NCBI RefSeq assembly: GCF_003818135.1
Contig: NZ_RPOH01000011.1
Span: forward strand, 1 to 34,464
Reading direction: 5' to 3'
Length of the DNA: 34,464 nt
Source: Buttiauxella warmboldiae
GTDB lineage: Bacteria > Pseudomonadota > Gammaproteobacteria > Enterobacterales > Enterobacteriaceae
A model generated the notes under the pieces. That model ran no database searches, was not told the origin of the DNA, and worked only from the letters and a program-made list of their open reading frames with translations. This document shows positions 3,643 to 26,402 of the stretch, in pieces. The number at the start of each line of letters is the position of its first letter. Position 1 is the first letter of the stretch. The translations under genes and the position numbers were made by a program.

Positions 3643-3747
3643 ACCACGGATAAATCTCATACTTGCAACTTTGCACACAGCGTCAACAATTAACTTTAAA
3701 TTGCACCGGAGCCCGTGCTCCCTGACCTGTAACTAAAGGAGATGAGT

Positions 3748-11356: not shown

Positions 11357-11881
11357 TCAGAGTTGGGCAAGGAGCTGCTGGTAGATTTGGGTATTTTCGT
11401 CGTCATAGCAGACAAAAACCACCTGTTCAGGTAACGGACGCAGGCCGATATAGCGGTAAACAGTATCCACGGCGATTTTTGCGGCCTCCTGTTTCGGATA
11501 ACCGTAAACCCCGGTGCTGATTGCCGGGAACGCAATCGTTTGATAACCATTCGCAGCGGCTAAATCCAGGCAGTTACGATAAGTTTGTTCGAGCAGCTCA
11601 GCCTCATGCTTTTCGCCGCCGTGCCACACCGGGCCAACCGCATGAATCACCGCTTTAACAGCAATATTCCCCGCTTCAGTAATCACCGCATGCCCGGGCG
11701 CGCATTCGCCCTGCTGGCGCACTATCACTTTACACGCATCCAGCAACGCAGGCCCTGCGGCCTGATGAATAGCACCATCAACACCACCGCCCCCCAGCAG
11801 GGAAGGATTAGCCGCATTCACTATCACATCCGCCTTAACGCGGGTGATATCACCTTGTATCACCGACATTCTTTCACTCAT
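11357..11881 (-). CDS. ymdB: O-acetyl-ADP-ribose deacetylase YmdB, macrodomain protein
   Basis: A single macrodomain of 174 residues. E. coli YmdB (177 residues) hydrolyses O-acetyl-ADP-ribose, also modulates RNase III, and stimulates ClsC. The ADP-ribose-binding motifs are visible: GDIT near residue 10, [18 protein letters not shown] at 21-38 and the loop STGVYGYP. Upstream in-frame ATGs exist, but the ATG at 11881 has GGAG at 8 bases and matches the family N-terminus. It lies immediately upstream of clsC. The 152 bases between it and the aryl polyene cluster (11882-12033) hold no gene and no clear terminator or promoter. Confidence 0.92.
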
Positions 11882-12033
11882 GGGCAAATCTCCAGTTAGT
11901 CTTTGATCGTAGTCTAAACTTGCCGAACCGCCGACGTATATCACTTCCTGAGGCTCCCGCTCCATCACCCGGATTCTGATTTATCCTCGCTGACGGCAAA
12001 AAGAGCCCTGGCAGCCCGGTATCAGGAAAGGTT

Positions 12034-12672
12034 TTATCGCTGGTGTGGGCCAGAAACCGCGGCAACGGAAGGCACCGGCGTGAAGCCTGGAGCAAACGGC
12101 TGTTCGCCGCAGCAGGCGATCAGCCAGTCTCCCACGGTGACGTGTTGCAGATAGCGATCTGGCGGGCAAAGCGTATGCAGCGGCAGGTCCAGCTGACTCA
12201 TCTGCCAGACCGTCCCCCCTCGCTGTTTCAGCACCGCTTCATGGGCAGTCCAGAGCCGCCAGAATTGCGGGATTTGTTCGCACTGCGGCAGCGCTGCCAG
12301 CCACTCACATAAATGGGCAGCAAAGCTATGCCGGGCAATGGCCATAAAACGCGCTCGCGGACGGATTTGTTCGAGATCGCATCCGACATTCCCGTCGCCC
12401 ACCAGCACCGCCACCCCACTCCCGCTGTTGCTGATATTGAAAGCGGGTAACGCAGGATGCCAGGGTTTGCCCTGCGCAGTCTTCTCCAGGCAGGGCAAGG
12501 GGCCGTTATCGAGCAATTGCGCCAGCAAAACTCTGGCGGCTATCCAGTCATTACGCCGCCGCCCGGCGGGAGCCTGTTGCAATAATTCAGGCGTAAGCCA
12601 GCGTGTGGCGAGCTCCTCACTCGCTAAACACGCCGCTTCGGCGAACGCCAGGCGATAGCCGTTCGCTACCAA
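12034..12672 (-). CDS. 4'-phosphopantetheinyl transferase of the aryl polyene cluster
   Basis: A 212-residue protein of the Sfp/EntD superfamily, which transfers phosphopantetheine from coenzyme A to a Ser of carrier proteins. Supporting motifs are GCDLE (Asp99, Glu101, magnesium ligands), NISNSG near 79-84 and FWRLWTAHEAVLK at 137-149 with Glu145. The usual Lys of the WxxKE motif is His here. The expected targets are the two carrier proteins encoded at 24051-24591. The start appears to be TTG at 12672, overlapping the stop of the preceding ketosynthase by 7 bases, with no good Shine-Dalgarno, so the exact start is uncertain. It is the last gene of the operon. I am unsure which ape letter it carries elsewhere. 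Confidence 0.85.
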   Translation of the reverse strand: MVANGYRLAFAEAACLASEELATRWLTPELLQQAPAGRRRNDWIAARVLLAQLLDNGPLPCLEKTAQGKPWHPALPAFNISNSGSGVAVLVGDGNVGCDLEQIRPRARFMAIARHSFAAHLCEWLAALPQCEQIPQFWRLWTAHEAVLKQRGGTVWQMSQLDLPLHTLCPPDRYLQHVTVGDWLIACCGEQPFAPGFTPVPSVAAVSGPHQR

Positions 12673-13892
12673 CGGCGCAGCACCAGTGAAGTATTAATGC
12701 CCCCGAAGGCGAAGTTATTGCTCTGCACAAATTCAGTGTCGATTTTGCGCGCTTCACCGATGATGTAATCCAGCTCGCCGCAGGCGGCGTCCGGCTGCGT
12801 CAAATTCAGCGTTTCGGCAAACCAGCCTTCACGCATCATTTCGATACTCATCCAGGCTTCCAGCGCCCCACAGGCGCCTAAAGTATGGCCAAAATAGCTT
12901 TTCAACGAAGAGATCGGCGTGGCGGCGCCAAAAATCGCCGCCGTAGCGTGAGTTTCAGCAATATCGCCGCGGTCGGTTGCGGTGCCGTGGGCGTTAATAT
13001 AGCCGATATCGCCTGCCGCCAGCCCTGCCGAACGCAGGCCGCGCTCGATACAGATTTGCATGGTTTCCTGCTGCGGCTGGGTAATATGCGCCGCATCGCA
13101 ATTGGTATGGAACCCCACGATCTCGGCATAGATCGTAGCCCCACGCGCCAGCGCATGGTCAAGATCTTCAAGGATCAGGCTCCCCGCCCCTTCGCCAATC
13201 ACCAGGCCATCACGCTGCTGATCAAACGGCGACGGCGTGCTTTTCGGCCGATCGTTGCGCTGGCTGGTAGCAAACAGGGTGTCAAACACCGCGGCTTCAG
13301 ACGGGCATAGCTCTTCCGCGCCGCCTGCCACCATTACCGTCTGGTAACCATGGCGAATCGCTTCCCAGGCATAGCCGATAGCCTGGCTGCCGGAGGTGCA
13401 GGCGCTTGAGGTTGGGATGACGCGCCCACGCAGGCCAAAGAACAATCCGGTATTCACCGCCGCGGTATGGGGCATCATCTGCACGTAGGTAGTGCCGGTA
13501 ATATTACGGGTGTGTTTTTCGGTGAGCATGGTGGCAAATTCGCTTACCGGCCCGGTGCTGCCGGTAGAAGAGCCGTAGGCAATGCCCGTTTCGCCGCTGG
13601 TTAAAATCGGGTCATCGATAAGGCCCGCCTGAAGCAGCGCCAGCTCGGTCGCCCTGGTGGCGAGCAGTGAAACTCGCCCCATCGCCCGAATACGCTTACG
13701 GGTGTAATGATCCGGTAAGGTAAAACGATCAACCGGCGCACCGAGCATGGTGTTTAGCCCGTCATAGATTTGCCACTCGGGCATGTGTCGAACGGCGTTT
13801 TGCCCTGATTTTAGCCCCGCGGCGACCTGCTGCCAGCTCTCGCCAAACGCGGTCACGCCGCCCATTCCGGTCACGACGACGCGCTTAATCAC
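12666..13892 (-). CDS. apeR: Aryl polyene beta-ketoacyl-ACP synthase ApeR
   Basis: A 408-residue FabF/FabB-like ketosynthase. The catalytic triad is complete: Cys165 in SSACTSGS, His302 in NAHGTAT and His336 in FGHTLGACGA. In aryl polyene synthesis such an enzyme condenses malonyl-ACP with the growing chain. In studied clusters ApeO does most elongation and ApeR has a distinct, less defined role. The start overlaps the apeQ stop as ATGA, and the end overlaps the phosphopantetheinyl transferase start. The C-terminus FAFGGINTSLVL is a standard ketosynthase ending. The letter follows gene order in described ape clusters. Confidence 0.88.
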   Translation of the reverse strand: MIKRVVVTGMGGVTAFGESWQQVAAGLKSGQNAVRHMPEWQIYDGLNTMLGAPVDRFTLPDHYTRKRIRAMGRVSLLATRATELALLQAGLIDDPILTSGETGIAYGSSTGSTGPVSEFATMLTEKHTRNITGTTYVQMMPHTAAVNTGLFFGLRGRVIPTSSACTSGSQAIGYAWEAIRHGYQTVMVAGGAEELCPSEAAVFDTLFATSQRNDRPKSTPSPFDQQRDGLVIGEGAGSLILEDLDHALARGATIYAEIVGFHTNCDAAHITQPQQETMQICIERGLRSAGLAAGDIGYINAHGTATDRGDIAETHATAAIFGAATPISSLKSYFGHTLGACGALEAWMSIEMMREGWFAETLNLTQPDAACGELDYIIGEARKIDTEFVQSNNFAFGGINTSLVLRRW

Positions 13893-14620
13893 AGCATACC
13901 TCCATTGATGGAGATAACCTGGCGGGTAAGATAACCTGCCACCGGCGACATCAGGTAACGCGCAAGCCCGGCCACCTCTTCCGGTTGCCCCATGCGCTGC
14001 ATCGGAATGATGCGCATCGCCTCGCTCAGCGCTGCGTCTTCCATTTCAATCATGCCGGTATCAATCAGGCCGGGGGCAATACAGTTAACGGTAATTTTGC
14101 GTTTCGCCAGTTCGATTGCCAGCGCTTTGGTGGCGCCGATAATACCCGCTTTTGCCGCGCTGTAATTCACCTGGCCGCGGTTACCCATCAGGCCTGAAAC
14201 GGATGATAGCGTAATAATGCGCCCGCCGTTGCGCAGGCCAATCATCGGCATCACGCACGGCTGAATGACGTTGTAGAAGCTGTCGAGGTTGGTGCGAATT
14301 ACGCCATCCCAATCGTCATCGCTGAGCGCGGGAAATGCGCCATCGCGGGTGATACCGGCGTTATTCACCACGCCCCAGTAGGCACCGTACTTTTCAATGT
14401 CGGCTTCGATAACGCTGCGGCATTGTTCACGCCCGGAGCTGTCAAATTGCATGACGCGACCTGTTCCGCCCTGAGCTTTAATTTCTTCAAGCGTTTGTTG
14501 TGCCCCCGCTTCATCACGATGGTAGTGCACCACCAGCGCAAATCCGTCTGCGGCCAGCCCCAGGGCAATTGCCTTGCCAATTCCTTTACTGGCGCCGGTT
14601 ACTAATACCGTCTGTGTCAT
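13889..14620 (-). CDS. apeQ: Aryl polyene 3-ketoacyl-ACP reductase ApeQ
   Basis: A 243-residue short-chain dehydrogenase of the FabG type. The NADPH-binding motif TGASKGIG is at residues 8-15, VNNAG at 85-89, Ser140 in TLSSVSG, and YxxxK as Tyr153 and Lys157. It reduces the beta-keto group after each condensation in polyene assembly, in the cytoplasm on ACP-bound substrate. It begins 15 bases after the apeP stop and overlaps apeR by 4 bases. A housekeeping fabG is normally in the fab cluster, so this copy belongs to the polyene pathway by context. Confidence 0.9.
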   Translation of the reverse strand: MTQTVLVTGASKGIGKAIALGLAADGFALVVHYHRDEAGAQQTLEEIKAQGGTGRVMQFDSSGREQCRSVIEADIEKYGAYWGVVNNAGITRDGAFPALSDDDWDGVIRTNLDSFYNVIQPCVMPMIGLRNGGRIITLSSVSGLMGNRGQVNYSAAKAGIIGATKALAIELAKRKITVNCIAPGLIDTGMIEMEDAALSEAMRIIPMQRMGQPEEVAGLARYLMSPVAGYLTRQVISINGGML

Positions 14621-14635
14621 CTTGCTGCTATCCCA

Positions 14636-15094
14636 TTAAAATAATTGTTTTAATTCTTTATTATCAGGCTGATAGGTATTTACCCGCCCGCTCGCCAGCA
14701 GGTTGCCCCGGGCAAGAATTTGTCCTTCAAAACTGCCAATTTTTTCATCACGCATCAGCAGCGTGACGTGACAATCCAGCACCGCGCCCTGAGCAAACAC
14801 ACCTGCCGCGCAGCGTATGCCACGGCCGCCCAGCAACATCCCCACGCGGCTGGCCTCTTCACCGTTATTCAGCGCATGCCAGCCCGACCACACGCCCACC
14901 GTCTGGGCTATCAGCTCAATGGCAAACCAGCCCGGTAAGTGACCTTCGGCATCAAGAAACGGCGCCAGCACGCCCTGGTGACTCACCGTTACCCGACAAT
15001 GCGCGCTTTCTTGTTCCACCGCCACCACCGACTCGAGCAGGCACATGGGTGCTTCATGGGGCAAATAGTGGCGTGGGGCAAGAAAATCAGTCAT
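14636..15094 (-). CDS. apeP: Aryl polyene 3-hydroxyacyl-ACP dehydratase ApeP
   Basis: A 152-residue hotdog-fold protein resembling FabA/FabZ-type dehydratases, with YLPHEAPM near residue 10 and LPGWFAIELIAQTVGVWSG in the central helix, where Glu and Gln are family-typical. In the described aryl polyene system ApeP acts with ApeI as a dehydratase heterodimer that forms the conjugated double bonds. I chose the ATG at 15094, which has GGAG at 6 bases, over the ATG at 15106 inside apeO. It overlaps the apeO stop by 8 bases. Confidence 0.85.
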   Translation of the reverse strand: MTDFLAPRHYLPHEAPMCLLESVVAVEQESAHCRVTVSHQGVLAPFLDAEGHLPGWFAIELIAQTVGVWSGWHALNNGEEASRVGMLLGGRGIRCAAGVFAQGAVLDCHVTLLMRDEKIGSFEGQILARGNLLASGRVNTYQPDNKELKQLF

Positions 15095-16259
15095 GGGACA
15101 CTCCAAAAATCAGGCAGGCATTGTTGCCGCCAAAAGCAAATGAGTTCGACAGCATTGTTGGCGTGCTAAAGGGCTGCGCAGCGCTGAGTAGACCACAAGG
15201 GGCCAGCTCCGGGTCTTGATGCGCATCAGTGAAATCTTGTGCAGGCAGCGGCAGATTACGCGATAACAGCAAATAACAGATCGCCGCTTCGCAGGCCCCG
15301 GCGGCGCCCAAAGTGTGGCCGGTCAGATGCTTCGTGGAGCTGGAAGGCACACTGGTGCCAAAAAGCTGATTCACCACTTTCGCTTCGATCTCATCATTCA
15401 GACGCGTGGCGGTGCCGTGCATGTTGATATAGCCAATCTGCCGGGCATCGAGCCGCGCCTCGCGCAGCGCCATTTCTATAGCGCGCATGGCGCCCACCCC
15501 TTCCGGATGCGGGGCCGACATATGCCAGGCGTCAGACGATTCGCCAACGCCCAACAAACAGACTTTACCCGGCTCTCTGGTCAGCAAAATCAACGCCCCG
15601 GCTTCACCAATAGTGATCCCGTTGCGCCGTGCGCTAAACGGCGCGCAGCGCACGTTGCTCAATGATTCGAGGCTGTTGAAACCGTTGATCGGCATCCGGC
15701 TCAGAGTATCGGCCCCCCCGACAATCGCCGCGTCTACCATGCCGGATTCAATCAGCCGTTTGCCGGTCATTATCGCCCGCGCGCTGGAGGAGCAGGCGGT
15801 GGAAATGGTCAGCGCCGGGCCAAACAGCTGCAAGTATTCGCTGAGAAAACGAGAGGGGTCGCCAAGCTCCTGCTGCCCGTAGCGGTAAGAGGCCGGCGGC
15901 GTGCCTGCGAGGCTGCCGCTGACCATCCGGTCGCCTTCATCCAGCCCCGAGGTGCTGGTTCCCAGCACCACCGCCACGCGCGAATGGCCATATTGAGCAA
16001 TGGCTTCATCCACCTGCGGGCGAATTTGCCCCAGCGCGGCCAGCAGCAAACGGTTGTTGCGGCTGTTGTAGCGCACCATTTCGGGCGCAATTTCAGGAAG
16101 CTCACCGGTAACACGCCCTACCCAACACGTCCCCTGCTGCAACCAGCCATCACGGTCTGGCCCCATGCCGGGTGCGGTACCGGCCTGCAAATTTGCCGCA
16201 ATTTCATCAAGGTTATTCCCCAGCGCGTTGACCATTCCGACGGCGGTTAAAGTAATCAT
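15087..16259 (-). CDS. apeO: Aryl polyene beta-ketoacyl-ACP synthase ApeO
   Basis: A 390-residue ketosynthase with Cys156 in STACSSSA, His281 in NMHGTAT and His315 in LTGHTLGAAGA. This is the main elongating ketosynthase in described aryl polyene clusters, where it pairs with the chain-length-factor-like ApeC encoded at 25377-26111. The start MITLTAVGMVNALG is typical for the family. The gap to apeN is 2 bases and the end overlaps apeP. Residue order and the complete triad support an active enzyme. Confidence 0.88.
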   Translation of the reverse strand: MITLTAVGMVNALGNNLDEIAANLQAGTAPGMGPDRDGWLQQGTCWVGRVTGELPEIAPEMVRYNSRNNRLLLAALGQIRPQVDEAIAQYGHSRVAVVLGTSTSGLDEGDRMVSGSLAGTPPASYRYGQQELGDPSRFLSEYLQLFGPALTISTACSSSARAIMTGKRLIESGMVDAAIVGGADTLSRMPINGFNSLESLSNVRCAPFSARRNGITIGEAGALILLTREPGKVCLLGVGESSDAWHMSAPHPEGVGAMRAIEMALREARLDARQIGYINMHGTATRLNDEIEAKVVNQLFGTSVPSSSTKHLTGHTLGAAGACEAAICYLLLSRNLPLPAQDFTDAHQDPELAPCGLLSAAQPFSTPTMLSNSFAFGGNNACLIFGVSHD

Positions 16260-16261
16260 GC

Positions 16262-16837
16262 TTAGCGGTCCAGATGCTGAATACTGATGAGATAGCCAAA
16301 ACGATGGTGCTGCACGCTCACCGGCTGGCGGCTGGCGTCACGCATCAGATAATGAATGGTCTCGATCAATTCGCCCTGCTCGTCGCGCAGTTCGCGCCGG
16401 GAAGCGATATCTTTCAACGTCCACCCCGGTGGCAGCTGAGGCTGCCAGGCCTTGAGCGGCCAGTAGCTCAACATAATATCGGCGAGCACCTGGCTGGCCG
16501 GAGGCAATTCAGGCAGCGTGATGGATTGTTCGGTTTTAATCCCCGCAGCATCGTAGGTCAAACGAAATAAACGAATCCCCAGCGGGGATAAGCCCGCCAG
16601 CATGATTTTCTGCTGGTCGGCATGGAGTAATACCATCAATGACTGGGTTTTGCCTTTTACCTGCGCGCTTAACAGCTGCTGCTGAGTGATGGCGGGTGAA
16701 ATTCCGGGAGCGGGCAGCGTCACCAGCGTGCCGGGTTTTAGCCACGCCTGCGGTCTTGACGTCTCTGGTTTTGTGGTGCTACAGGCAACCAGTAGTAAGG
16801 AGCCAAGCAGCAGTGCCAGCGTCGGTAATTTTTTCAT
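16262..16837 (-). CDS. apeN: DUF3261 lipoprotein of the aryl polyene cluster (ApeN)
   Basis: A 191-residue predicted lipoprotein with a hydrophobic signal and the lipobox LVAC, lipidated at Cys19. The mature part matches the DUF3261 family seen in aryl polyene clusters (WLKPGTLVTLPAPG near residue 32, and a C-terminal QPVSVQHHRFGYLI). It probably sits in the outer membrane or periplasm and takes part in receiving or placing the polyene lipid, by analogy with LolB-like partners; that is inference. The start overlaps the exporter stop as ATGA. Confidence 0.82.
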   Translation of the reverse strand: MKKLPTLALLLGSLLLVACSTTKPETSRPQAWLKPGTLVTLPAPGISPAITQQQLLSAQVKGKTQSLMVLLHADQQKIMLAGLSPLGIRLFRLTYDAAGIKTEQSITLPELPPASQVLADIMLSYWPLKAWQPQLPPGWTLKDIASRRELRDEQGELIETIHYLMRDASRQPVSVQHHRFGYLISIQHLDR

Positions 16838-19155
16838 ATTTCTCTCTTTCCCTGAGGAGGTAAAGCTAAAGGAGCGGTCAGGAATGCGCAGAAGATCCCG
16901 CAGCTGAGCACAATGCCAAAGCTGGCAATAGCCTGCGTCTGGCTAAAGACCAGCATGCCTAACGTCAATAGCGTGGTCAGCAGCGCCACGCTGATAGCCA
17001 GCAGCGAGGTCAGCGGCGTGCCGCGCGGGTTGCTAAAGAACAGGGTGTAGTTGATGCCAATCCCGAGAACCAGCACCAGCGCCAGTAATGAGAAAAGGTT
17101 TAGCGTATGGCCGCTAAAGGCGAGCGCGGCAAGCCCCCCACCGAGCGAAAGCAGCGAAGGCACCACATTCAATAAACCGCGCTTCAGACCAAGCCGCAGC
17201 ACATAGCTGATAGCAATCGCTACTACCGCCACGGCCAGTAAACCAGCCAGCAAGCTGCGGAAGTGGCTGAATAGCTCGTTGAACTGCGCTTTGCGATCGA
17301 CCCAGCTGACCCCCGGTATTTTTGCTGCAATCGCGGCGAGTGCTTCGCTGTTATGAACGCCGCTTACCGGCACCAGCGCGCCACTTTTGCCATCCGGCAG
17401 AGACAGCCACAGCAGGCGCCAGCCGCTGCTGATCGCGCTCTCTTGCCAGAGTTCCGGCGTTACCGGCATCGGCTGAAGATTAGGCGTAGCCACGCTAATC
17501 CCGCTTTCGGCAAGGCGCTTTTGCAGCACGGGGGCGGCTGCACGCAGCAGCTGTAGATCCGCCTGTTGCTGCCTGAGTGAGGCAAGAGGGATCAGGCGAT
17601 AACTGTCGATAGCCTGCTGTTTTTTAGCCGCGGCCAGCTCTGGCGCCAGCGTCTCCAGCCGTTGCAGCGTTTGCTCGGCGCTGTCGCCGTAAACCACAAA
17701 CCATTTTTGATCCATGCCCTGCCCGGTTAACGCGGTAATGGCCTGTTCTGCGCGCACCAGATCTTGCGGCAGCGCCTGAAAACTGGCGATATCGTCATTA
17801 ATCTTTAACGAGGCTACCCCGGCGATACTTGCCAGCAGCAAGGCGACTGGCACACCCAGCCGCACCGCTTGCTTGTGCTGCCACGCGTTAAGCCAGCCGT
17901 TAAGCCAGCGGCTACAGGGCACCGCTCTGACCGGCAAACCGCGTACCAAAAAGGGATACCAGCACACTACCGTCAGGCAGGAGGCGATTAAGCCACTGGC
18001 GGCAAATACCGCAAGCTGGCGAATGCCGGGGAACGGCGCAAGGATCATAATCAGATAGGCAATCGTCGTGGTCGCCAGCGCCAGCAACAGGGCGGGCAGC
18101 ACTTTACGCAGGCTGGCACCCGGCGAGTTTTGCGCACCATGCACCATGCGTTCGGTCAGATAATAGAGCGTGTAGTCCGCCGACACGCCGACGATGCTCA
18201 TGCTCATCACCAGCGTCATCAGGTGCAGTTCACCGAAGCACAGCAGCGTAATAACCGTACCCGCCAGCGCCCCGATAGCCACTGAGAGCGCGCATAGCAG
18301 CAGAGGCCGCACCGAACGAAATACCACCAGTACCAGCAGCAGCACGCCAATGACCGTAGCCAGCCCCAGCGTCGAAACATCATGCTTTGCCTGCTGGCTG
18401 GCATAATCGCTGTACAACAGCGTGCCGCGCGACATCACCTCAGCCTGTGGGAAATGCTGTTGCAGCTTTTGCTGTAAGGCTTGCAGTTGCGCAACCGCCG
18501 CGCGCCCCTGCTGCATATCGAAGGAGGAGCCTTTTAGCTCACCATGTAGCAAATACCAGTAACGCCCCTGCTTATCACGCGCAACCAGCCAGCCGTTCAT
18601 CAGGCGCATCTGGCTGGCCGTTTGCTGCAGCGCCAGCTGCGAGCCGCGCACCAGCATCAGCGGATCGTTGGTTAGCTCTTTACCGCTGACTCCAGAAAAC
18701 GCCGAATAGAGCTGTGCTAACACCCATTGCGCCTGCGCTTCCCCACCGTTTTGCAAGCGGCTACGGGTTTGGTTATCGACCAGCCCGTTGCGGTGTTCAA
18801 AGTAAAACTTCCCCCACGCCTGCTGGCCCTTAGCATCCATCGGCCCCTGTACATCTTGCAGAAAGGGCTGCTGTTGCAGCTGCGCCAGCCACCACCGAGC
18901 GGCGGCGGGGTCTGGCGTGCTGCCGGGGCTAACCATCCACATCATTTGCCGATCAAGACGCTGCAGAAAACCCTTCTCAATGGACGGCGGAATATTCCCG
19001 AGGCTGCTGGCAGGTAGCAGCGACAGCACGCTGCTGTCGATGCGCGCCTTCGGTAATAAGGTTGCGAGCAACACCGCCAGCAGGATGACTAGCGCAAGCC
19101 AGCCTGCAGCCTGCCGGCGATGCGCGTCAGAAAGCGAAGCGCTGCTGCTCTTCAT
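16834..19155 (-). CDS. apeM: MMPL-family exporter of the aryl polyene cluster (ApeM)
   Basis: A 773-residue inner-membrane transporter of the MMPL/RND superfamily. The layout is duplicated: one N-terminal membrane segment (about 16-35), a large periplasmic domain, a group of membrane segments (about 255-400), a second periplasmic domain and a final membrane group (about 625-770). The family moves lipids and lipid-linked products across the inner membrane; here it is expected to export the aryl polyene lipid or an intermediate. The start overlaps apeL by 29 bases with no clear Shine-Dalgarno, which suggests translational coupling. The C-terminus overlaps apeN. Confidence 0.86.
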   Translation of the reverse strand: MKSSSASLSDAHRRQAAGWLALVILLAVLLATLLPKARIDSSVLSLLPASSLGNIPPSIEKGFLQRLDRQMMWMVSPGSTPDPAAARWWLAQLQQQPFLQDVQGPMDAKGQQAWGKFYFEHRNGLVDNQTRSRLQNGGEAQAQWVLAQLYSAFSGVSGKELTNDPLMLVRGSQLALQQTASQMRLMNGWLVARDKQGRYWYLLHGELKGSSFDMQQGRAAVAQLQALQQKLQQHFPQAEVMSRGTLLYSDYASQQAKHDVSTLGLATVIGVLLLVLVVFRSVRPLLLCALSVAIGALAGTVITLLCFGELHLMTLVMSMSIVGVSADYTLYYLTERMVHGAQNSPGASLRKVLPALLLALATTTIAYLIMILAPFPGIRQLAVFAASGLIASCLTVVCWYPFLVRGLPVRAVPCSRWLNGWLNAWQHKQAVRLGVPVALLLASIAGVASLKINDDIASFQALPQDLVRAEQAITALTGQGMDQKWFVVYGDSAEQTLQRLETLAPELAAAKKQQAIDSYRLIPLASLRQQQADLQLLRAAAPVLQKRLAESGISVATPNLQPMPVTPELWQESAISSGWRLLWLSLPDGKSGALVPVSGVHNSEALAAIAAKIPGVSWVDRKAQFNELFSHFRSLLAGLLAVAVVAIAISYVLRLGLKRGLLNVVPSLLSLGGGLAALAFSGHTLNLFSLLALVLVLGIGINYTLFFSNPRGTPLTSLLAISVALLTTLLTLGMLVFSQTQAIASFGIVLSCGIFCAFLTAPLALPPQGKREI

Positions 19156-19732
19156 GGGTCAGTTTTCGTGGGTTCGGTCGGTGATCGCTGAAGGAGATCT
19201 CGGTGAAATCTCCCTGTAAATCATTGAGCGCAATCCGGTTAAGGTACTTATCGCCCTGCAATGTGATGGTGCTAAACAGCTTGTCGAGCGGCGTGGTGGT
19301 TGGCGTTAATACCAGCTGCCATTTGCCATCGCCTTCATCGGTGAAGGCACTGGTAAAGTTCTCATCCAGCACCTGACGGTCGGCCTGGAACAGGGCGCGC
19401 AGCAGGTGGTTGAACTGGAACATTTGCGGATTGCTGTCAGCGGTGATGATTTGTGGTGCCTGACGGCCCATGACCTGCACCATATGGCTGTCGTCGAGCA
19501 CCAGCGTCATCGGAAACGGGTGCTGTTGCTGCCACCATAACCCTTTGCTTTTGGCGATCAACACTTCGCCGCTGGAGTGCAGCGGCTGCGCCATACCGCT
19601 GATTTGGCGGTCCTGCTGGAATTTTGCGCGCACCACCGGCTGCGAGGCAAAGCTGCGTTGCACCTCATCAAGCGTAATGGCGCGCGCCGTAAAGCTGAGA
19701 CACAGCAAGGCCATTAAAATAATCTTATTCAT
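19127..19732 (-). CDS. apeL: LolA-like outer-membrane lipoprotein carrier (ApeL)
   Basis: A 201-residue periplasmic protein with a signal peptide (MNKIILMALLCLSFTARA, cleaved before ITLDEV) and a LolA-type fold region beginning ITLDEVQRSF. The segment KSKGLWWQQQHPFPMTL resembles the LolA lipid-binding sheet. In this cluster it should carry a hydrophobic lipid moiety between the exporter and the outer membrane; that is inference from family and neighbours. The start overlaps apeK by 8 bases and the end overlaps apeM. Confidence 0.85.
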   Translation of the reverse strand: MNKIILMALLCLSFTARAITLDEVQRSFASQPVVRAKFQQDRQISGMAQPLHSSGEVLIAKSKGLWWQQQHPFPMTLVLDDSHMVQVMGRQAPQIITADSNPQMFQFNHLLRALFQADRQVLDENFTSAFTDEGDGKWQLVLTPTTTPLDKLFSTITLQGDKYLNRIALNDLQGDFTEISFSDHRPNPRKLTHEEQQRFAF

Positions 19733-20150
19733 GACTCAAGCCCATGCGTTGAAAAAGGATTGGCGGGGAGACAAAACAGAGCTCTCCGCTTGTGGCCTCA
19801 ACGGCAACCTGAATGGTGTAGCCCGTTGTGGTACGTTTACCGCTGGCGGCATCAAAAACTTCATAGCCGATTTTCAGGCGGTTTTCATACTCCAGCACCG
19901 TCGCCCGCACCAGGATCTGCTGTTCAAACTTCACCACATCACGGTATTTGATGCGGGTGTCGACCACCGGCCAGGCAAAACCGGACTCGCCCATCGCGCG
20001 GTAGCCATAATCAAACTGGTTAAGCAGCGCTTCGCGCGCCACCTCAAAGTAGCGGAAATAGTTACCGTGCCACACAACTCCCATTGCATCGACATCATGA
20101 AAGGGGACTTTGATGCTGACCTCCACGGTAAAGCGCGGGTCATTTAACAT
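19725..20150 (-). CDS. apeK: Acyl thioesterase of the aryl polyene cluster, 4HBT family (ApeK)
   Basis: A 141-residue hotdog thioesterase of the 4-hydroxybenzoyl-CoA type. The motif FHDVDAMGVVWHGNYFRYFE at residues 18-37 carries the Asp and the His-x-Asn-Tyr expected of the active site. It is expected to release or edit ACP-bound acyl chains. AGGAG lies 5 bases before the ATG at 20150. The gene overlaps apeJ by 7 bases and apeL by 8. Confidence 0.85.
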   Translation of the reverse strand: MLNDPRFTVEVSIKVPFHDVDAMGVVWHGNYFRYFEVAREALLNQFDYGYRAMGESGFAWPVVDTRIKYRDVVKFEQQILVRATVLEYENRLKIGYEVFDAASGKRTTTGYTIQVAVEATSGELCFVSPPILFQRMGLSHE

Positions 20151-21838
20151 CCGGACTCCTTTTCTGGCGGCAGTTGCCAGAAATCATAAAAATTAAACCA
20201 GTCGAGCGGTGAACGGAGCGCGTAAAACTCCAGACGACGCGCGTAACGATCGATGCAGTCTTGCAACGCCTGCTGGCGTGCGGCACGCGGCAGCAGCAGA
20301 GGATCGGCAAAATGTTCAGCGTGAATGCGTAGTTTGCCCTCCTCACGCAGCACCATCATCAGAATAACCGGGCATCGCAATGCGGCGGCAAGAATAAACG
20401 GCCCCTGCGGGAACGGCGCAGGGCTGCCCATAAACCGGCTCCAGCACACGCGCCTTTCCCCTCCGCGTTGGGTATTCACCGCGATTCTGTCGCCGACGAT
20501 CGCCACCCACTCCCCGGCATCGAGTTTTTCCTGCAATAGCATGGCCGTTTCCGGGCCGATGTGGCTAACCGGCAATAAATTTACGCCAGCCTGCGGGGCG
20601 ATCTCTTCAAGGATCTGGCGAAAACGCTGGGCGTGGTCGGTAAAGACCAGCGCATTAATCACCAGGCCCGCTTCAACCTGCGCCAGCGCACGGCTGGCTT
20701 CAATATCGCCGAGGTGCGCGGCAAGAATTAATTTCCCCTGCCCCGCCTGCGGCTGCAAAACTTCGCGGCTGCCGGGGGCAAATTCGATATCGCGCCCCCA
20801 GAGAAGATCCCCGCGCCAGGCGGCGATTTTATTCAGCATCGCATCGCCAAAGCGTAAGAAATGGCGGTAGCTGTTGAGCCCTTGCGGCAGGGGAAGCTGC
20901 TGGCAGCGCGCCTGTTGGCGTACGCGCTCCAGCCACTGCTGCGAGGCCTTACGTTGCTGGCGCCCCGTTAACCACATCCACCCCACCACCGGGTAGAGCA
21001 ACGCATTAAACGCACGCCGCCCCAGACGCTGGTAGGTTGTCAGCATCAGGCGCATTCCCGCCAGACCTTTACGCTCCGGGACTTGCGCCCAGTGCGCGCT
21101 CTTGCGCCGACGGGCCAGCAGCGATGGAATGCGCGGCAACATGCCGAAAAATAAACGCGTGTGCATCCACGAGATGCGCAGATTATCGCGCAGGGCATCA
21201 AAATGCGACAGGCCATCCGGCGGGTAAATGACCCTTGTTTTCAGAAACCGGCTGTCGGTGCCCGCCCAGTACAAGCGCACCATAATTTCCGTGTCGAAAT
21301 CCATTCGTTTGCCGGGGCGATGTTTCGCAACCACCGCGAGCGTTGCCGCCAGCGGATAAACCCGGAAGCCGCACATGCTGTCTTTTAACGATAACGAAAG
21401 CGTTTCAATCCATACCCAGAAATGGGTGACGTAACGCCCGTAGAGGCGTGATTTTGGTACCGATTCATCATAATCCGGAGCGCCAGAAATCAGACTTTCA
21501 GGATACAGCCGCGCTTGTTGTAAAAAGCGCGGCACATCTTCAATGGCGTGCTGCCCGTCGGCATCAAGCTGAATGGCATGGGTAAATCCCGCCTGCCATG
21601 CTGCTTTAAGGCCGGTAATCACCGCCGCCCCTTTTCCCTGGTTAGTCGCCAGCGAAATAAGAGTGACGCCGCTTAATTGCGCCAGCTGCTGTTTGGTTGC
21701 AGGCTCGCTGCCATCATCGACAATAATGCAGGGCAGCCCGGAAGGCTGCAGACGTGCCAGCACGGAGGCCATCGTCGCGCCGTGGTTGTAACAGGGGATC
21801 ACCACGCATGGGCGAAAAGCCGCAGCCGTTACGCGCAT
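20144..21838 (-). CDS. apeJ: Glycosyltransferase family 2 and LpxL-like acyltransferase fusion (ApeJ)
   Basis: A 564-residue two-domain protein. The N-terminal GT2 domain (about 10-240) shows VVIPCYNHG, IVDDGS at 39-44 and LDADGQH at 91-97. The C-terminal domain (about 290-560) is an LPLAT of the LpxL/HtrB type with HX4E as His375 and Glu380 in AAHLGDIE. The likely roles are transfer of a sugar and an acyl chain onto a lipid-linked aryl polyene precursor at the cytoplasmic face; the sugar and acceptor are unknown. The fusion is regular in aryl polyene clusters. It overlaps apeI by 10 bases and apeK by 7. Confidence 0.87.
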   Translation of the reverse strand: MRVTAAAFRPCVVIPCYNHGATMASVLARLQPSGLPCIIVDDGSEPATKQQLAQLSGVTLISLATNQGKGAAVITGLKAAWQAGFTHAIQLDADGQHAIEDVPRFLQQARLYPESLISGAPDYDESVPKSRLYGRYVTHFWVWIETLSLSLKDSMCGFRVYPLAATLAVVAKHRPGKRMDFDTEIMVRLYWAGTDSRFLKTRVIYPPDGLSHFDALRDNLRISWMHTRLFFGMLPRIPSLLARRRKSAHWAQVPERKGLAGMRLMLTTYQRLGRRAFNALLYPVVGWMWLTGRQQRKASQQWLERVRQQARCQQLPLPQGLNSYRHFLRFGDAMLNKIAAWRGDLLWGRDIEFAPGSREVLQPQAGQGKLILAAHLGDIEASRALAQVEAGLVINALVFTDHAQRFRQILEEIAPQAGVNLLPVSHIGPETAMLLQEKLDAGEWVAIVGDRIAVNTQRGGERRVCWSRFMGSPAPFPQGPFILAAALRCPVILMMVLREEGKLRIHAEHFADPLLLPRAARQQALQDCIDRYARRLEFYALRSPLDWFNFYDFWQLPPEKESGC

Positions 21839-22179
21839 AATTTAATTTTCCCGCTGCTGGCGGGCCACCAGTGCTCATCTTTTAACACGGTGTAGGCAAA
21901 ACTCAGCACCCTGCGCGCCGCATCCCACTGCAGATTCAGCTCCAGCTGATTTTCCGGCACTATCGGGCGCTGAAATTTAGCGCTATCAATTGAGCTAAAA
22001 TGCATCCCCGGCGCAAGCTCAGCCCCGTATGCCATCACCCAGTCAAGCTGTGCCACACCCGGTAATAACGGTTGTTCCGGAAAATGACCGGCAAACCAGC
22101 TTAATGTGGCCGGAACGGCCAGCCGCACCGTCAGTTTGCCCGCCTCAGGTTGCGAACGCTGTAGCTCAACGGGTTTCAT
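21829..22179 (-). CDS. apeI: Aryl polyene 3-hydroxyacyl-ACP dehydratase ApeI
   Basis: A 116-residue FabZ-like hotdog protein with GHFPEQPLLPGVAQ near residues 31-44 (His32), the dehydratase signature. ApeI is described as the partner of ApeP in the aryl polyene dehydratase. I chose the ATG at 22179, with AGGAG at 7 bases, over the ATG at 22209, which lies deeper inside apeH. The coding region overlaps the apeH end by 14 bases and apeJ by 10. Confidence 0.84.
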   Translation of the reverse strand: MKPVELQRSQPEAGKLTVRLAVPATLSWFAGHFPEQPLLPGVAQLDWVMAYGAELAPGMHFSSIDSAKFQRPIVPENQLELNLQWDAARRVLSFAYTVLKDEHWWPASSGKIKLCA

Positions 22180-23485
22180 CAAATAACTCCTGTAATTGCG
22201 CCCATGCACGCTTGCTTTGGCTATTCAGCGGAATGTGCTCAACAATGCGCCAGTAGCGCGGAATAGCTATGGGCTCCAGCCACGCGCGCAGTGCTTCGCG
22301 CCAGCGTCGCTTATCACTATGTTGCCCAGTGGTGACCACTACCGCTCCCAGCGCAACCCGGTTACCGCGCGTAACGGGCACCACCGCGGCATCTTCAATA
22401 CCGGGCAAGGCCAACAAACGGCGTTCAATCTCACTGAGCGAAATCCGTTTTTCTTCAATTTTTACGATACGATCGCGGCGGCCGGATAAACGAAAACGCC
22501 CCTGCGGGGTAAATTCCAGAATATCATCCAGCGGCAGCCGCCCCTGATAAATCAAGGGTGACTCCACCTGCCAGCCCTCTTCATTCGGGGTAAAATGCAC
22601 CGCCGGGAAGGGCTGCCACTCCGGGGAGGCTTCATTATGCTGCCGCCACGCCAGCACCCCGGTTTCAGTGGTACCGTAAATTTCTGACACCGGCGTCCGC
22701 AGCCAGGCCTGCGCATTTTGCGCGCTATCGTCATCGAGTTTTCCGGCGGCAGAGAGAACCATTTTAAAGTTCGGCGCCGTAAGGCTGGCATCAAGGCGTT
22801 TTAAAAACGCCGGGCTGCTGATAAATAATAACGGGGATGCGCAATGCGCAACCAGCTGTTCCGGAAAATGAATCATCCGGGCATCATTTGCTAACCCAAG
22901 CGCCATTGGCAGCATCACGCGGAAGGTGAAACCATAGAGATGCTGGTGCGACACCGATCCCACTACGCGGCAACCGGCTACGCTCTTCCCCCATAATGCC
23001 GCAATCCAGACAATTTCTTCATCCAGCGCTCGCACCGTTTTAAAAATTTGCGCGGGTTCACCCGTGGAGCCCGAGGTAAACAACACGACCCCTGCATCGC
23101 CAGGGATCGCGGCGAACGGCGCAACTTCCGCATACTCCAGATTTTGCGGATTGATTACCGGACAGGTGAGTTCAAGCGGCGTATCGCTGAGCACCCCATA
23201 AAAGTGCGTTTGCTGCTCGCGCAGCTGGGCTTCACGACTGTGTCCGGGGATCACTGGCGTTTTACCGGCGTGCAGCGTAGCCAGCAGCGCGGTGATAAAA
23301 AGGTAGCCGTTATCAAAACAGAGCGCCCAGCGCTCACCCGGCTGTGATTTTAGCCAGCCATAAATACGCTGCACATCGTTAATTAACTCGGCCTGCGTCC
23401 AGAGCGCGGCGCCATCAAAAGCCACAATGTGTTGCGCAGGGCGGCTGCACCCAAGCCACTGCGCCAGCGGTAACGGCTTATTCAT
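22166..23485 (-). CDS. apeH: AMP-forming starter-unit ligase of the aryl polyene cluster (ApeH)
   Basis: A 439-residue ANL-superfamily adenylating enzyme. The phosphate-binding motif is TSGSTGEPAQ at 137-146 (the usual Lys is replaced), followed by YGTTETG at 270-276 and GRRDRIVKIEEKRIS at 335-349. A C-terminal SKRAW segment supplies a candidate catalytic Lys. In aryl polyene synthesis it activates 4-hydroxybenzoate and loads an ACP. At 439 residues it is shorter than many family members but includes the hinge and C-terminal subdomain. It overlaps apeG by 8 bases. Confidence 0.88.
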   Translation of the reverse strand: MNKPLPLAQWLGCSRPAQHIVAFDGAALWTQAELINDVQRIYGWLKSQPGERWALCFDNGYLFITALLATLHAGKTPVIPGHSREAQLREQQTHFYGVLSDTPLELTCPVINPQNLEYAEVAPFAAIPGDAGVVLFTSGSTGEPAQIFKTVRALDEEIVWIAALWGKSVAGCRVVGSVSHQHLYGFTFRVMLPMALGLANDARMIHFPEQLVAHCASPLLFISSPAFLKRLDASLTAPNFKMVLSAAGKLDDDSAQNAQAWLRTPVSEIYGTTETGVLAWRQHNEASPEWQPFPAVHFTPNEEGWQVESPLIYQGRLPLDDILEFTPQGRFRLSGRRDRIVKIEEKRISLSEIERRLLALPGIEDAAVVPVTRGNRVALGAVVVTTGQHSDKRRWREALRAWLEPIAIPRYWRIVEHIPLNSQSKRAWAQLQELFDETR

Positions 23486-24047
23486 CGCGGCGCTTCACCC
23501 GTTGCCTGATAAGCCATTCGCCCGTAAACAGCGCGCCCATTAGCAGATAGCCGATCATTCCGTTCCACAACGTCCACCAGTGAATATTTCCCGCAAGGCA
23601 GGTAAACAGCGCAACGCCGCCATTAAAGAGAAAGAACAGGCACCATACCTGAGTCACCCGGCGGGTATAACGCACGCCAGCAGGAGAGAGGTCACCTTCG
23701 CGCCAGCGCGCCAGGCGCTCAATGACTGACTGGCGACTCCACAGCGAGCCGCCAAAGAGCGCCAGCATCACCATATTGACCACCACCGGATACCACAGCA
23801 GCAGCTGCAGTTCGCGTAGCCAGAGACTGGCAACGGTGAGCAGCGCTCCCGCAACGGCCAGTCCTTTAAACGCATGGCTTAAAGCTCCGGTTTTGCCACG
23901 CAGCGCACACAGCCGCAGTACAAAGCACAGCGCCAGGGCAGGTAATAACATGTGTAATTCTGGATATGAGAGGGCTAACCAGACGGCAAAGGGCCAGCCG
24001 ATGATGGCCAGCCCTCCGGCAACGCTTAGCGCGCGTTTTGCCAGCAC
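23478..24047 (-). CDS. apeG: COG4648-type membrane protein of the aryl polyene cluster (ApeG)
   Basis: A 189-residue hydrophobic protein with about five or six membrane segments, typical of the COG4648 protein found in aryl polyene loci; its function is unknown. It begins with GTG at 24047, three bases after the apeF stop, with GGATCTTAAAGC upstream as a weak ribosome-binding site. Its place between the second carrier protein and the ligase is the standard order. No catalytic motif was recognised. Confidence 0.75.
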   Translation of the reverse strand: MLAKRALSVAGGLAIIGWPFAVWLALSYPELHMLLPALALCFVLRLCALRGKTGALSHAFKGLAVAGALLTVASLWLRELQLLLWYPVVVNMVMLALFGGSLWSRQSVIERLARWREGDLSPAGVRYTRRVTQVWCLFFLFNGGVALFTCLAGNIHWWTLWNGMIGYLLMGALFTGEWLIRQRVKRRDE

Positions 24048-24050
24048 GCT

Positions 24051-24299
24051 TTAAGATCCGTTTTGTAAACGCTCAACCGCGTCCACCACATCCTGAACGG
24101 TGCGAACCGCTTTAAAATCTTCCGGTTTAATTTTTTTACCGGTGCGTTTTTGCAGATGGACCACCATATCGACCGCATCGATGCTGTCGAGATCCAAATC
24201 TTCATAGAGACGGGATTGTGGCGTAATTTGTTCCGCTGAGAGTTCAAATAACTTAACCAGTAACCCGGTGACTTCCTGATAAATATCTTGTTTATTCAT
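24051..24299 (-). CDS. apeF: Acyl carrier protein of the aryl polyene cluster (ApeF)
   Basis: An 82-residue acyl carrier protein. The phosphopantetheine attachment Ser39 lies in DLDLDSIDAVDM, the standard DSxD site. It carries the polyene intermediate on a thiol arm. The starting ATG is 19 bases past the apeE stop. Its attachment motif differs from the neighbouring ApeE, which suggests the two carriers have different partners. Confidence 0.88.
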   Translation of the reverse strand: MNKQDIYQEVTGLLVKLFELSAEQITPQSRLYEDLDLDSIDAVDMVVHLQKRTGKKIKPEDFKAVRTVQDVVDAVERLQNGS

Positions 24300-24318
24300 A
24301 GCGTGCTCGTGGTTGCAA

Positions 24319-24591
24319 TCAGGCGCGGTGCGCAGGGGTTTGGGTGTCTATAAAAGCGGCAAGCCTGGCGACAGAGTAAAAATGTTCGCGCATCGCTTCG
24401 TTTTCGGCGGATAACACCACACCATAACGTTTTTTAACTGCCAGTCCCAATTCCAGTGCATCAATGGAATCAAGGCCAAGACCGTCGTGACCAAATAACG
24501 CAGCCTCGCTTTCAATCTCATCAACACCGATCTCCTCGAGATTCAGGGTGTCGATAATGAGTTGTTTAATATCGCTCTCTAAGGATTCCAT
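24319..24591 (-). CDS. apeE: Acyl carrier protein of the aryl polyene cluster (ApeE)
   Basis: A 90-residue acyl carrier protein with Ser42 in GLGLDSIDALEL, the expected phosphopantetheine site. It is acidic, as carriers are. In studied clusters one carrier receives the aromatic starter and the other serves extension. It lies 15 bases after apeD and 19 before apeF, in the usual tandem arrangement. Confidence 0.88.
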   Translation of the reverse strand: MESLESDIKQLIIDTLNLEEIGVDEIESEAALFGHDGLGLDSIDALELGLAVKKRYGVVLSAENEAMREHFYSVARLAAFIDTQTPAHRA

Positions 24592-24606
24592 ATAACCATC
24601 CGAGTC

Positions 24607-25377
24607 TTAACGAGAATCAGGAACCAGTTCCTGACATAAATAGTGGCTAAGACGACGCGCCGCCAGTGCGGGCGCATCATCCTGACTTGCCATAAAACGC
24701 TTGCTATCAATCCGCTGCTTTACACTGACGGTAATCATCGGTTTGTGTTTGGGTATCTGATACCAGCGGCTGTGTTTATCCAGATAACGCCGATCGCTAT
24801 GAATATGCACCAGCCGCAATTCGCAGCCGCTACGTACGGCGATATTAGCCGCCCCGCGCTGGATAGTTAACGGCTCTCCCGGACGCGTGCGCGTGCCCTC
24901 CGGAAAAATCAGTATCGCCTCCCCTGCCGCCATACGTTTCTGGCTTTCAGGCAGTAATGTTTCGCCCTGGCTGTTGACCAGATAATCTGCCGCTTTTATC
25001 ACGCCGCGAAAGCAGGGATTGTTCACCAGGCTCGCTTTCACCAGGCAGCCGATGTGCGGAGCCTGGGAAGCAATAAACACGTAATCCAGCAACGTCGGGT
25101 GGTTAGCCACAATCAAACAACCGCGATCGTTCGCTAATTGTTCGCAGCCCTCAAAGCGGTAATCGAATACCCCCAGAGCGCGCCCGAGGCGTAAAAACAG
25201 CCGGAAGCTGGCGGCGATGCTGCGCCGCGCAAGATCGCGGCGCTTGCCGCTGTCGCGCACAAACAGCAACAGCAAGTTAAACCATACCAGCGACAGCGCA
25301 AGGCCACCGCTACCAAATAAAATGAACAGCCAGCCGGTCATCAGCACGCGCCAGCACCATTTAATGCGCGCCGACAT
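24607..25377 (-). CDS. apeD: PlsC-like lysophospholipid acyltransferase (ApeD)
   Basis: A 256-residue 1-acyl-glycerol-phosphate acyltransferase-like protein with one or two N-terminal membrane segments (about 12-42). The HX4D motif is NHPTLLD (His93, Asp98) and the substrate motif FPEGTRTR is at 158-165. It probably acylates a lipid acceptor for the polyene. The ATG at 25377 overlaps the apeC stop as TAATG, with GGAG 10 bases before. A GTG at 25395 would extend it by 6 residues inside apeC. Confidence 0.86.
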   Translation of the reverse strand: MSARIKWCWRVLMTGWLFILFGSGGLALSLVWFNLLLLFVRDSGKRRDLARRSIAASFRLFLRLGRALGVFDYRFEGCEQLANDRGCLIVANHPTLLDYVFIASQAPHIGCLVKASLVNNPCFRGVIKAADYLVNSQGETLLPESQKRMAAGEAILIFPEGTRTRPGEPLTIQRGAANIAVRSGCELRLVHIHSDRRYLDKHSRWYQIPKHKPMITVSVKQRIDSKRFMASQDDAPALAARRLSHYLCQELVPDSR

Positions 25378-26111
25378 TAATGACGACTCCAGCACCAGCG
25401 CAGACGTTCGCCCGGCAGCGTGAAGCTTTGCTTATCGCTAAGCCAGGCGTGTAAAAATGCCAGTCCCTGCGGCAAAGCCTGCGCGCCAGGCTTCTGGCCC
25501 GGTGTGGTTTCACACTGCATTTGCGAGCCCGCCTGCAGCAATAATCCCACGGCAAACGGAATATCGACCACTTCTTCAGGAAGGTGCGGATGATAAAACT
25601 CAGGCAGCAGGCCATCGAAGTCCACCAGCATGACGCGCTGATAACCGGCATGATGCAGCGCGGCCACTTCAATCAGCGCCTGCGAAAAGCTATCAAAACC
25701 TGCCGCAACGGAAGAACAAACCAGCGCTTGCTGCGCCGCAATCGTGGTGTTGCCCACCGCAGAGTTATGAACCGACATCGCAAAATCCGTTGGCGAAAGG
25801 GCTTCCTGCTGCGCCAGAGCGCTCAAAATGCGGAAATTTCGCTCCAGTTCACCGTGACGGCTGGCGAAAACCAACGCATCGACCGGCTGTCTGGAGAGTA
25901 GCGCCAGCGCGCAGTCAACCGCCAGGCGGCTGCCAGAGGCCAGACGGCGGGCTGTCATCATCGGTAAATGCCGGCTTTTAGCCAGCGGGGCGGCAATATC
26001 AATCGAGGCTGCGTCTTTCCCCCACGCCAGCCAGTCATCGTGTTCAGATAAACCCGGAGCGCTGGCCTGCCAGTCGATAATGTTAAACGCTAACTTCATG
26101 CTCGGTACCAT
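25377..26111 (-). CDS. apeC: Ketosynthase-like chain-length-factor protein of the aryl polyene cluster (ApeC)
   Basis: A 244-residue protein corresponding to the N-terminal half of a beta-ketoacyl synthase (Ketoacyl-synt_2 type). The stretches HNSAVGNTTIAAQQ and VCSSVAAGFDSF match the ketosynthase nucleophile region, and a Cys (132) is at the position of the usual nucleophile. The second half of a ketosynthase with the two His is absent. In the described system ApeC is the non-catalytic chain length factor that pairs with ApeO. It is first in the operon. The ATG at 26111 has AGGAG only 2 bases away; MKLAF at 26099 has it at 14, so the start is uncertain. Confidence 0.82.
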   Translation of the reverse strand: MVPSMKLAFNIIDWQASAPGLSEHDDWLAWGKDAASIDIAAPLAKSRHLPMMTARRLASGSRLAVDCALALLSRQPVDALVFASRHGELERNFRILSALAQQEALSPTDFAMSVHNSAVGNTTIAAQQALVCSSVAAGFDSFSQALIEVAALHHAGYQRVMLVDFDGLLPEFYHPHLPEEVVDIPFAVGLLLQAGSQMQCETTPGQKPGAQALPQGLAFLHAWLSDKQSFTLPGERLRWCWSRH

Positions 26112-26402
26112 TACTCCTGTAACATCCCGCCAGATATTACGCTGCGAATTTATAGCGACTATAAAATAAGTCTTAATTTAACGAGGTCTTTCTTAAAGCG
26201 CTGCTATTTTGCGCAGCATGCTGGCACCACGGCGGGGAATAGTAACAAAAAAGAGTGTTAAATAAATACATGGGATAGCACAAAAGTCTTACGGTTAGCA
26301 GGCCTTTGATTCTGGCGGGATGCCACTTCAGGCATAGCAGGCTGATGCTTGTCGTCTAGCCGGGTGTGAGGGTTATCGGTAAAAAATGGGCAGCAACACA
26401 GG
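26112..26402. other. Intergenic region between csgC and the aryl polyene operon
   Basis: These 291 bases hold no plausible gene. They contain the csgC terminator candidate at the right end and a candidate operon promoter near 26149-26176. A short inverted repeat ATGCC...GGCAT lies around 26329-26344. E. coli K-12 has ymdA in this interval; I find no remnant of it. Confidence 0.6.
26149..26176 (-). promoter_or_regulatory. Candidate promoter of the aryl polyene operon
   Basis: On the minus strand, TTAAGA (26176-26171) and TATAAA (26154-26149) are separated by 16 bases, placing transcription start near 26142, about 30 bases before apeC. The hexamers are fair matches to the consensus, but the region is generally AT-rich, so this is a candidate only. 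Confidence 0.35.

Follow-up and report, generated by a model that had tools for sequence, protein, structure and literature searches.

A complete aryl polyene operon between curli and ymdB in Buttiauxella warmboldiae, probably inherited with the locus by Buttiauxella and its nearest relatives

We analyzed a 34,464-nt stretch of the Buttiauxella warmboldiae genome (RefSeq assembly GCF_003818135.1, contig NZ_RPOH01000011.1, positions 1–34,464; hereafter the window), in which a gene cluster for an aryl polyene (APE; a yellow, antioxidant pigment of membranes) at positions 12034–26111 adjoins the curli genes and lies between csgC and ymdB. We conclude that Buttiauxella and its nearest kin probably inherited a complete APE biosynthesis and export operon in the ymdA–ymdB interval, equipped with a putative promoter of its own, and that the operon is not a recent insertion. 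We hold this account to be likely rather than certain because the cluster may have arrived at this locus twice or been transferred, and because of what deletion of apeA and apeB does in Escherichia coli (see below). The case separates two ways of reading the adjacency of two biofilm systems (i.e., chromosomal history and shared control).

The cluster consists of 17 consecutive minus-strand open reading frames (ORFs) with no internal stops, and 16 of the 17 genes match the Pfam families expected for APE. The matches comprise the core enzymes (the ApeC, ApeO, and ApeR ketosynthases, the ApeQ reductase, and the ApeI and ApeP dehydratases), a 4HBT protein, an AMP-binding (PF00501) acyl–acyl carrier protein (ACP) synthetase together with two PP-binding carriers, from which aryl loading is predicted, the acyltransferase and GT2 genes of lipid attachment, the LolA, DUF3261, and MMPL genes of export, and an ACPS-type 4′-phosphopantetheinyl transferase (PPTase). 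Gene names follow Table 1 and the gene order in the excerpts of PMC8253772 on which we rely throughout. From the curli side to the ymdB side, the features are:

26403–26732, minus: csgC, curli gene adjoining the cluster (Tafi-CsgC, PF10610, 2.6e-32)
25377–26111, minus: ApeC, chain-length-factor ketosynthase, first gene of the operon (PF13723, Ketoacyl-synt_2, 1.2e-65)
24607–25395, minus: ApeD, lysophospholipid-type acyltransferase (PF01553, 1.4e-16)
24319–24591, minus: ApeE, acyl carrier protein (PF00550, 1.6e-05)
24051–24299, minus: ApeF, acyl carrier protein (PF00550, 5.7e-13)
23478–24047, minus: ApeG, COG4648-type protein, named by position (no Pfam match; in 71/71 loci compared, 42–85% identity)
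22166–23485, minus: ApeH, acyl-ACP synthetase (PF00501, 1.7e-15)
21829–22209, minus: ApeI, dehydratase (PF22818, 2.1e-28)
20144–21838, minus: ApeJ, glycosyltransferase with N-terminal GT2 domain (PF00535, 8.3e-16)
19725–20150, minus: ApeK, thioesterase (PF13279, 2.1e-14)
19127–19732, minus: ApeL, LolA-like chaperone (PF03548, 1.6e-09)
16834–19155, minus: ApeM, MMPL/RND-type exporter (PF03176, 7.5e-10)
16262–16837, minus: ApeN, DUF3261 LolB-like protein (PF11659, 1e-37)
15087–16259, minus: ApeO, ketosynthase (PF00109/PF02801)
14636–15106, minus: ApeP, dehydratase (PF22817, 7.4e-44)
13889–14620, minus: ApeQ, ketoreductase (PF13561, 5.2e-54)
12666–13892, minus: ApeR, ketosynthase (ketoacyl-synt, PF00109; 75–86% identity in APE loci outside the csg-linked group)
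12034–12672, minus: AcpT-type PPTase, last gene of the cluster (PF01648, 3e-09; 39–41% identity to E. coli AcpT)
11357–11968, minus: ymdB, macro-domain protein downstream of the cluster (PF01661, 1.3e-46)

The first-pass annotation of this DNA had described a full APE operon beside curli, on the strand of csgBAC and between conserved flanks, and the Pfam families and intact ORFs bear this description out. On the downstream side, the PLD-family gene clsC (Pfam) adjoins ymdB; past csgC come csgA and csgB (both named by position), csgD, csgG, ycdZ, ycdY, ycdX, and ghrA; the order is that of E. coli. Relative to the APE cluster of E. coli CFT073 (apeA–R, c1186–c1204; PMC8253772), the cluster in the window shares 16 of 18 genes, in the same order from apeC to apeR, on one strand and with overlapping frames; it differs in having no apeA or apeB, in the PPTase that closes the operon, and in its site between ymdA and ymdB beside curli. 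APE clusters at the yhhT–acpT–nik locus (E. coli 382634_2f, Citrobacter, Enterobacter) have the same core and, as in the window, a PPTase gene (acpT) directly after apeR, but they carry apeA and in many cases apeB, occupy another chromosomal site, and form a separate branch of the tree. The clsC-side clusters of Erwinia rhapontici, E. piriflorinigrans, and Pantoea share the neighborhood; no apeB was found in them, and some have an intervening TonB receptor. They differ from the window in keeping apeA, in having no PPTase found in the cluster, and in having no csgC in the stretch examined.

The linkage to curli is fixed within a narrow clade and rare outside it. Across 246 genomes sampled evenly from the family (GTDB definition), csgC was found in 59, ApeP in 84, and both in 37, with the two ∼12 kb apart in 5; all five were Buttiauxella or belonged to a nearby group (g65) of six genomes, made up of Dryocola boscaweniae, Cedecea colo, Cedecea sulfonylureivorans, Enterobacter sp. 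R1(2018), and kin. Among the 59 csgC genomes, five had APE between csgC and ymdB and two had an ApeL-like relic there, while the stretches of the other 52, some of them shorter than 20 kb, gave no APE match (hand count). The distance from csgC to ymdB was 105 to 2904 bp in 33 of the 59, and in the other 19, ymdB or csgC was not found by BLAST in the stretch. Within the two groups, csgC and ApeP were 11.8 to 12.2 kb apart in 12/12 Buttiauxella genomes, all 17 genes stood behind csgC in 6/6 nearby-group genomes, and the order csgC–ymdA–apeC through to the PPTase gene recurred in 17/17 relatives. Among the 80 named loci listed, at least 14 had the cluster preceded by csgC and ymdA; these all come from Buttiauxella or the nearby group and are the same genomes, not additional ones. 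The arrangement is thus universal in the Buttiauxella genomes compared, which by the criterion set in the first-pass annotation (universality in the clade) removes much of the surprise for this genus, and rare in the wider family (5/59 csgC genomes, 5/37 with both csgC and ApeP). Joint inheritance, called plausible in the first-pass annotation, is supported in the sense of a stable linkage (12/12 and 6/6 genomes). In the literature searched, mostly outside subscription journals, the text shown for the papers listed, including excerpts of PMC8253772, PMC8466087, PMC12890032, PMC12873547, and PMC6329079, gave no description of a curli-adjacent APE cluster; the cluster is of a known kind, and its position is clade-specific.

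The same relatives show what happened to ymdA. This gene is present between csgC and apeC in 17/17 relatives with the same cluster, and the csgC–apeC gap, 627 to 685 bp in the relatives, measures 291 bp in the window, where alignment with the 17 relatives revealed a remnant:

26307–26401, minus: scar of the deleted ymdA, consisting of the upstream leader and a degenerate 3′ end, with the middle missing

Local scores for the scar were 24 to 44, against a largest score of 26 to 34 in 100 shuffles, and the alignment exceeded its own shuffle maximum with 13/17 relatives (the remaining loci being L046, L053, L055, and L056). Since the gap in the window aligns to both ends of ymdA and the gene is kept in 17/17 relatives, ymdA was lost from the window by a small deletion of its own after the cluster was in place. 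The first-pass annotation had considered that ymdA was lost in exchange for the cluster; an exchange is ruled out by the scar and by the 17/17 relatives in which ymdA stands beside the cluster.

Upstream of apeC, one short element is nearly invariant, and a terminator-like structure lies between two of the neighboring curli genes:

26237–26250, minus: 14-nt box TTTTGTTACTATTC upstream of apeC, read as a putative extended −10 promoter (TGNTACTAT)
26755–26781, minus: terminator-like hairpin between csgA and csgC (12 pairs, 3-nt loop; 2 such sites versus a shuffle mean of 1.1)

Mean column conservation was 99% in the box and 70% across the remainder of the upstream 200 nt (15/18 rows kept), a descriptive contrast, the box having been picked as the most conserved stretch. 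With at most one mismatch, the box recurred 137 to 145 nt before the apeC match in 17/17 csg-linked relatives, and the variants TGTTACTAT and TGATACTAT fit our reading of it as an extended −10 element. It was found in 1/121 other APE loci (a far-off match in L121; many of the named copies repeat others) and in 1% of shuffled upstream regions; of the 32 matches in this search, 14 are named copies of the same genomes. The window holds five matches in all (2.2 expected), of which every one but the apeC copy has three mismatches. We also considered the box as a clear operator shared with csg and rejected that reading: the genome has 10 matches at two mismatches or fewer against 14 for the reversed control, and an exact match only at apeC. 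Buttiauxella has a second conserved stretch (AAATTAAGANTTATT type) that separates the box from apeC (26150–26190 on the minus strand of the window); it recurs in altered form in the nearby group. After ymdA, 14/17 relatives have a G+C-rich hairpin by one pattern; because the pattern fixes the core, the evidence is carried by the outer pairs, and 9.0 of 10 pairs form compared with 7.6 when arms are swapped between genomes.

Transcription of the operon would most likely start at this conserved extended −10 promoter, apart from csgBAC, and the anatomy speaks for separate transcription of ape and csgBAC in a way that is compatible with common regulators. The joint control thought plausible in the first-pass annotation finds no support in the conserved apeC box or in the hairpin that follows ymdA in most relatives. 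It appears unlikely that the two loci form a joint curli–pigment matrix module, in which ape would be read through from csgBAC or answer to the same regulator (CsgD, RpoS) and the linkage would be kept for that purpose. Such a module would account for two systems that are contiguous, on the same strand, and linked in 18/18 genomes, with products that are both tied to biofilm in the excerpts of PMC8253772; in the window, moreover, ymdA is gone and the hairpin after it has decayed, and an A+T-rich match to the box, weak at three mismatches, lies in the csgB–csgD interval (28286–28299). Against it stand the near-invariant box that apeC has of its own, the other matches in the window all having three mismatches, the hairpin that one search pattern places between the units in 14/17 relatives in addition to the one already present between csgA and csgC, and related APE clusters that hold the same neighborhood in genomes without csgC. 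It also sits poorly with CFT073, whose ape and curli loci are not adjacent: in the excerpts of PMC12890032, ape is up at 37 °C, and curli, which is lowly expressed, has no thermal response.

The history that we favor draws on the APE loci of other genera. In a concatenated tree of 12 proteins from 39 loci, the csg-linked clusters grouped at 100/100, with the cluster of genome G027 as their sister, also at 100/100; a FastTree run with 73 loci recovered this grouping at 1.00. In G027, where csgC was not found, the order is ghrA–ycdX–ycdY–APE–TonB receptor–ymdB–clsC. Both genomes of a curli-bearing genus (g71) have the order ymdA–LolA–binding protein–FecCD permease–TonB receptor–ymdB, with no match to ApeP. 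Their LolA-like gene gave no Pfam match at 1e-5, is 57 to 58% identical to ApeL of the window, and falls inside the csg-linked/G027 clade (0.97; inner node 0.81); by this placement, the lone gene is an ApeL-like relic of an APE cluster. Of the 84 ApeP genomes, 11, spread over eight genera, have ApeP no more than 25 kb from opgG (others could be concealed by contig ends; the locus was read in those other than G240), and of these 11 only the five Buttiauxella and nearby-group genomes have csgC. In six of the 80 named loci listed, the cluster is followed by clsC and the stretch has no csgC; these are the loci of Erwinia rhapontici, E. piriflorinigrans, Pantoea agglomerans, P. varia, P. endophytica, and Pantoea sp. 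RIT-PI-b. Both clsC-linked lineages have a related TonB receptor that separates APE from clsC or ymdB, and the receptor tree groups them alike; behind the PPTase gene, the receptor is retained in four nearby-group genomes. A single old APE–receptor–ymdB–clsC locus would be the simplest history. The ancestor would have held APE and a TonB-dependent receptor next to ymdB–clsC–opgCGH, Buttiauxella would then have lost or replaced the receptor, and the species in the window would additionally have deleted ymdA. The locus thereby offers visible stages of its history (i.e., full cluster, relic, and alternative cargo).

Whether the cluster came to this place once, twice, or lately can be weighed from the same comparisons. 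The earlier suggestion that the cluster was gained here holds at best for an ancient event, since 12/12 Buttiauxella genomes and 6/6 of the nearby group have the cluster here, and APE stands beside ymdB or clsC in other genera without csgC. A recent horizontal insertion of a foreign cluster replacing ymdA would fit the G+C content of 57.5% in the cluster versus 53.5% in 15 flanking genes, and APE clusters are said in the excerpts of PMC8253772 to sit on pathogenicity islands in other enterics; we nonetheless regard it as very improbable. The cluster is in 18/18 genomes of both groups, the drop in mean protein identity from 85 to 87% within Buttiauxella to 75 to 78% in the nearby group fits long residence, ymdA stands beside the cluster in 17/17 relatives, and no close relative occurs on any plasmid record (best 25% coverage at 72%). 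Mobile-element remnants, which the first-pass annotation had proposed to look for, were not seen at either junction: ORFs, Pfam, and a tRNA search gave no transposase, integrase, or tRNA, and the longest word common to both junctions was 8 nt in direct and 7 nt in inverted orientation, where 30 shuffles reached 7.4 on average and 10 at most. The junctions thus have none of the marks of a recently mobile island (integrase, transposase, flanking repeats, tRNA boundary), and we rejected a mobile insertion on these grounds and on the plasmid search; the relatives contradict it as well.

A second alternative is that APE reached clsC/ymdB separately, by insertions or transfer, in the ancestor of Buttiauxella (with G027) and in Erwinia, Pantoea, and kin. 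We lean against this while giving it appreciable weight. The clsC-linked clusters fall into two lineages that the tree joins with weak support, the cluster ends differ (ApeA in Erwinia/Pantoea, PPTase in Buttiauxella), the APE tree and OpgG relatedness disagree for G027, and most other Enterobacteriaceae among the 80 named loci listed have APE beside acpT and yhhT. Against separate arrivals stand the related TonB receptor that both lineages have between APE and ymdB/clsC, with its concordant grouping, the FhuD/FhuB-like pair that accompanies the receptor in G119, Winslowiella, and the g71 genus, and the lack of an ApeB match in all 12 clsC/ymdB-side clusters examined outside the csg-linked group. 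Several observations weigh against our own account of one inherited locus with its own promoter. Support for how the three main APE lineages relate to one another is weak (52/14), and the tree program flagged the G027 row and three others for odd composition. OpgG of G027 is 82% identical to that of the window, compared with 85 to 88% for many curli-bearing genera, some of which carry APE at the acpT site, so that a single old locus needs transfer or differential loss. A sigma-70 scan found no promoter near apeC, consensus scans of both junctions yielded little, and the hairpin that follows ymdA in most relatives survives in the window in degraded form. Finally, the cluster being without ApeA and ApeB, lipid attachment may differ here from that of E. 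coli, where deletion of either gene removes the primary APE lipid. A broader proposal, in which ymdA/ymdB–clsC–opg was the ancestral Enterobacterales home of APE and an iron-chelate receptor, later joined with curli in Buttiauxella and its nearest kin so that both systems follow the same stationary-phase signals from separate promoters, is one that we view with considerable doubt.

The predicted chemistry is ordinary and would correspond to a known APE type without ApeA and ApeB and with an AcpT-type PPTase. By homology to the E. coli and Xenorhabdus clusters, the PPTase would arm the carriers ApeE and ApeF, and ApeH would load 4-hydroxybenzoate; ApeO and ApeC, with ApeQ and ApeI/ApeP, would extend and dehydrate the chain to a conjugated polyene. 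ApeK, ApeD, and ApeJ would release it and attach it to lipid, and ApeM, ApeL, and ApeN would carry the product to the outer membrane, where it would act as an antioxidant and biofilm factor. Neither apeA nor apeB had a match in the window, and ApeB was found in 0/12 Buttiauxella genomes, a search with no positive control of its own; the same query protein matched kin in many other APE loci. ApeB being the head-group methyltransferase, its absence leads us to predict an unmethylated aryl head group. In the excerpts of PMC8253772, E. coli apeA and apeB deletions kept pigmentation near wild-type, yet they made immature APE acids, and the primary APE lipid was missing; judged from these deletions, formation of a pigmented polyene would not depend on ApeA or ApeB. 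What these two proteins contribute could be tested with a cluster such as this one, which naturally lacks both ApeA and the head-group methyltransferase.

On the far side of the cluster, the genomes checked differ in what comes after the PPTase gene. The gene ymdB directly follows the PPTase gene in the window, in four other Buttiauxella, and in two nearby-group genomes. A decarboxylase and an amino-acid permease lie behind the PPTase gene in two Buttiauxella, and an MscS-type channel and a TonB receptor in two nearby-group genomes, with ymdB ∼4 kb further on in both cases. For seven other relatives we used named copies: ymdB is ∼4 kb behind apeR in four, a TonB receptor is present with ymdB out of reach in two, and one has no named copy. 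Cargo in the ymdA–ymdB interval varies by genus, with a LolA-like relic and iron-chelate-type uptake genes in one (L092:1634–7553, L094), a lone TonB receptor in another (L104 reverse, 1684–3882), and APE in Buttiauxella and kin; the interval looks like a tolerant slot. The sole tRNA of the window, a tRNA-Ser (GGA) at 34189–34276, is 8 kb from the cluster and was the single match of an Rfam search of the window; the serX tRNA of E. coli CFT073 serves as a site of island insertion.

In each of the 12 Buttiauxella genomes, the PPTase of the cluster is the only strong AcpT-type match, the second being weak (30–35 bits) and elsewhere. In E. coli 382634_2f, a full APE cluster lies between acpT and yhhT (L167:7390–22995), and 805/5426 E. 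coli genomes have at least 80% of the query in one place. In the lower-ranked E. coli genomes of a spread sample, the match is limited to 598 bp holding acpT; this pattern suggests that AcpT, an orphan PPTase in E. coli, is what remains of a lost APE cluster. E. coli M-17 (L272) has APE at a further site, flanked by a cdiA system and by a sugar phosphotransferase system region in which a transposase is annotated.

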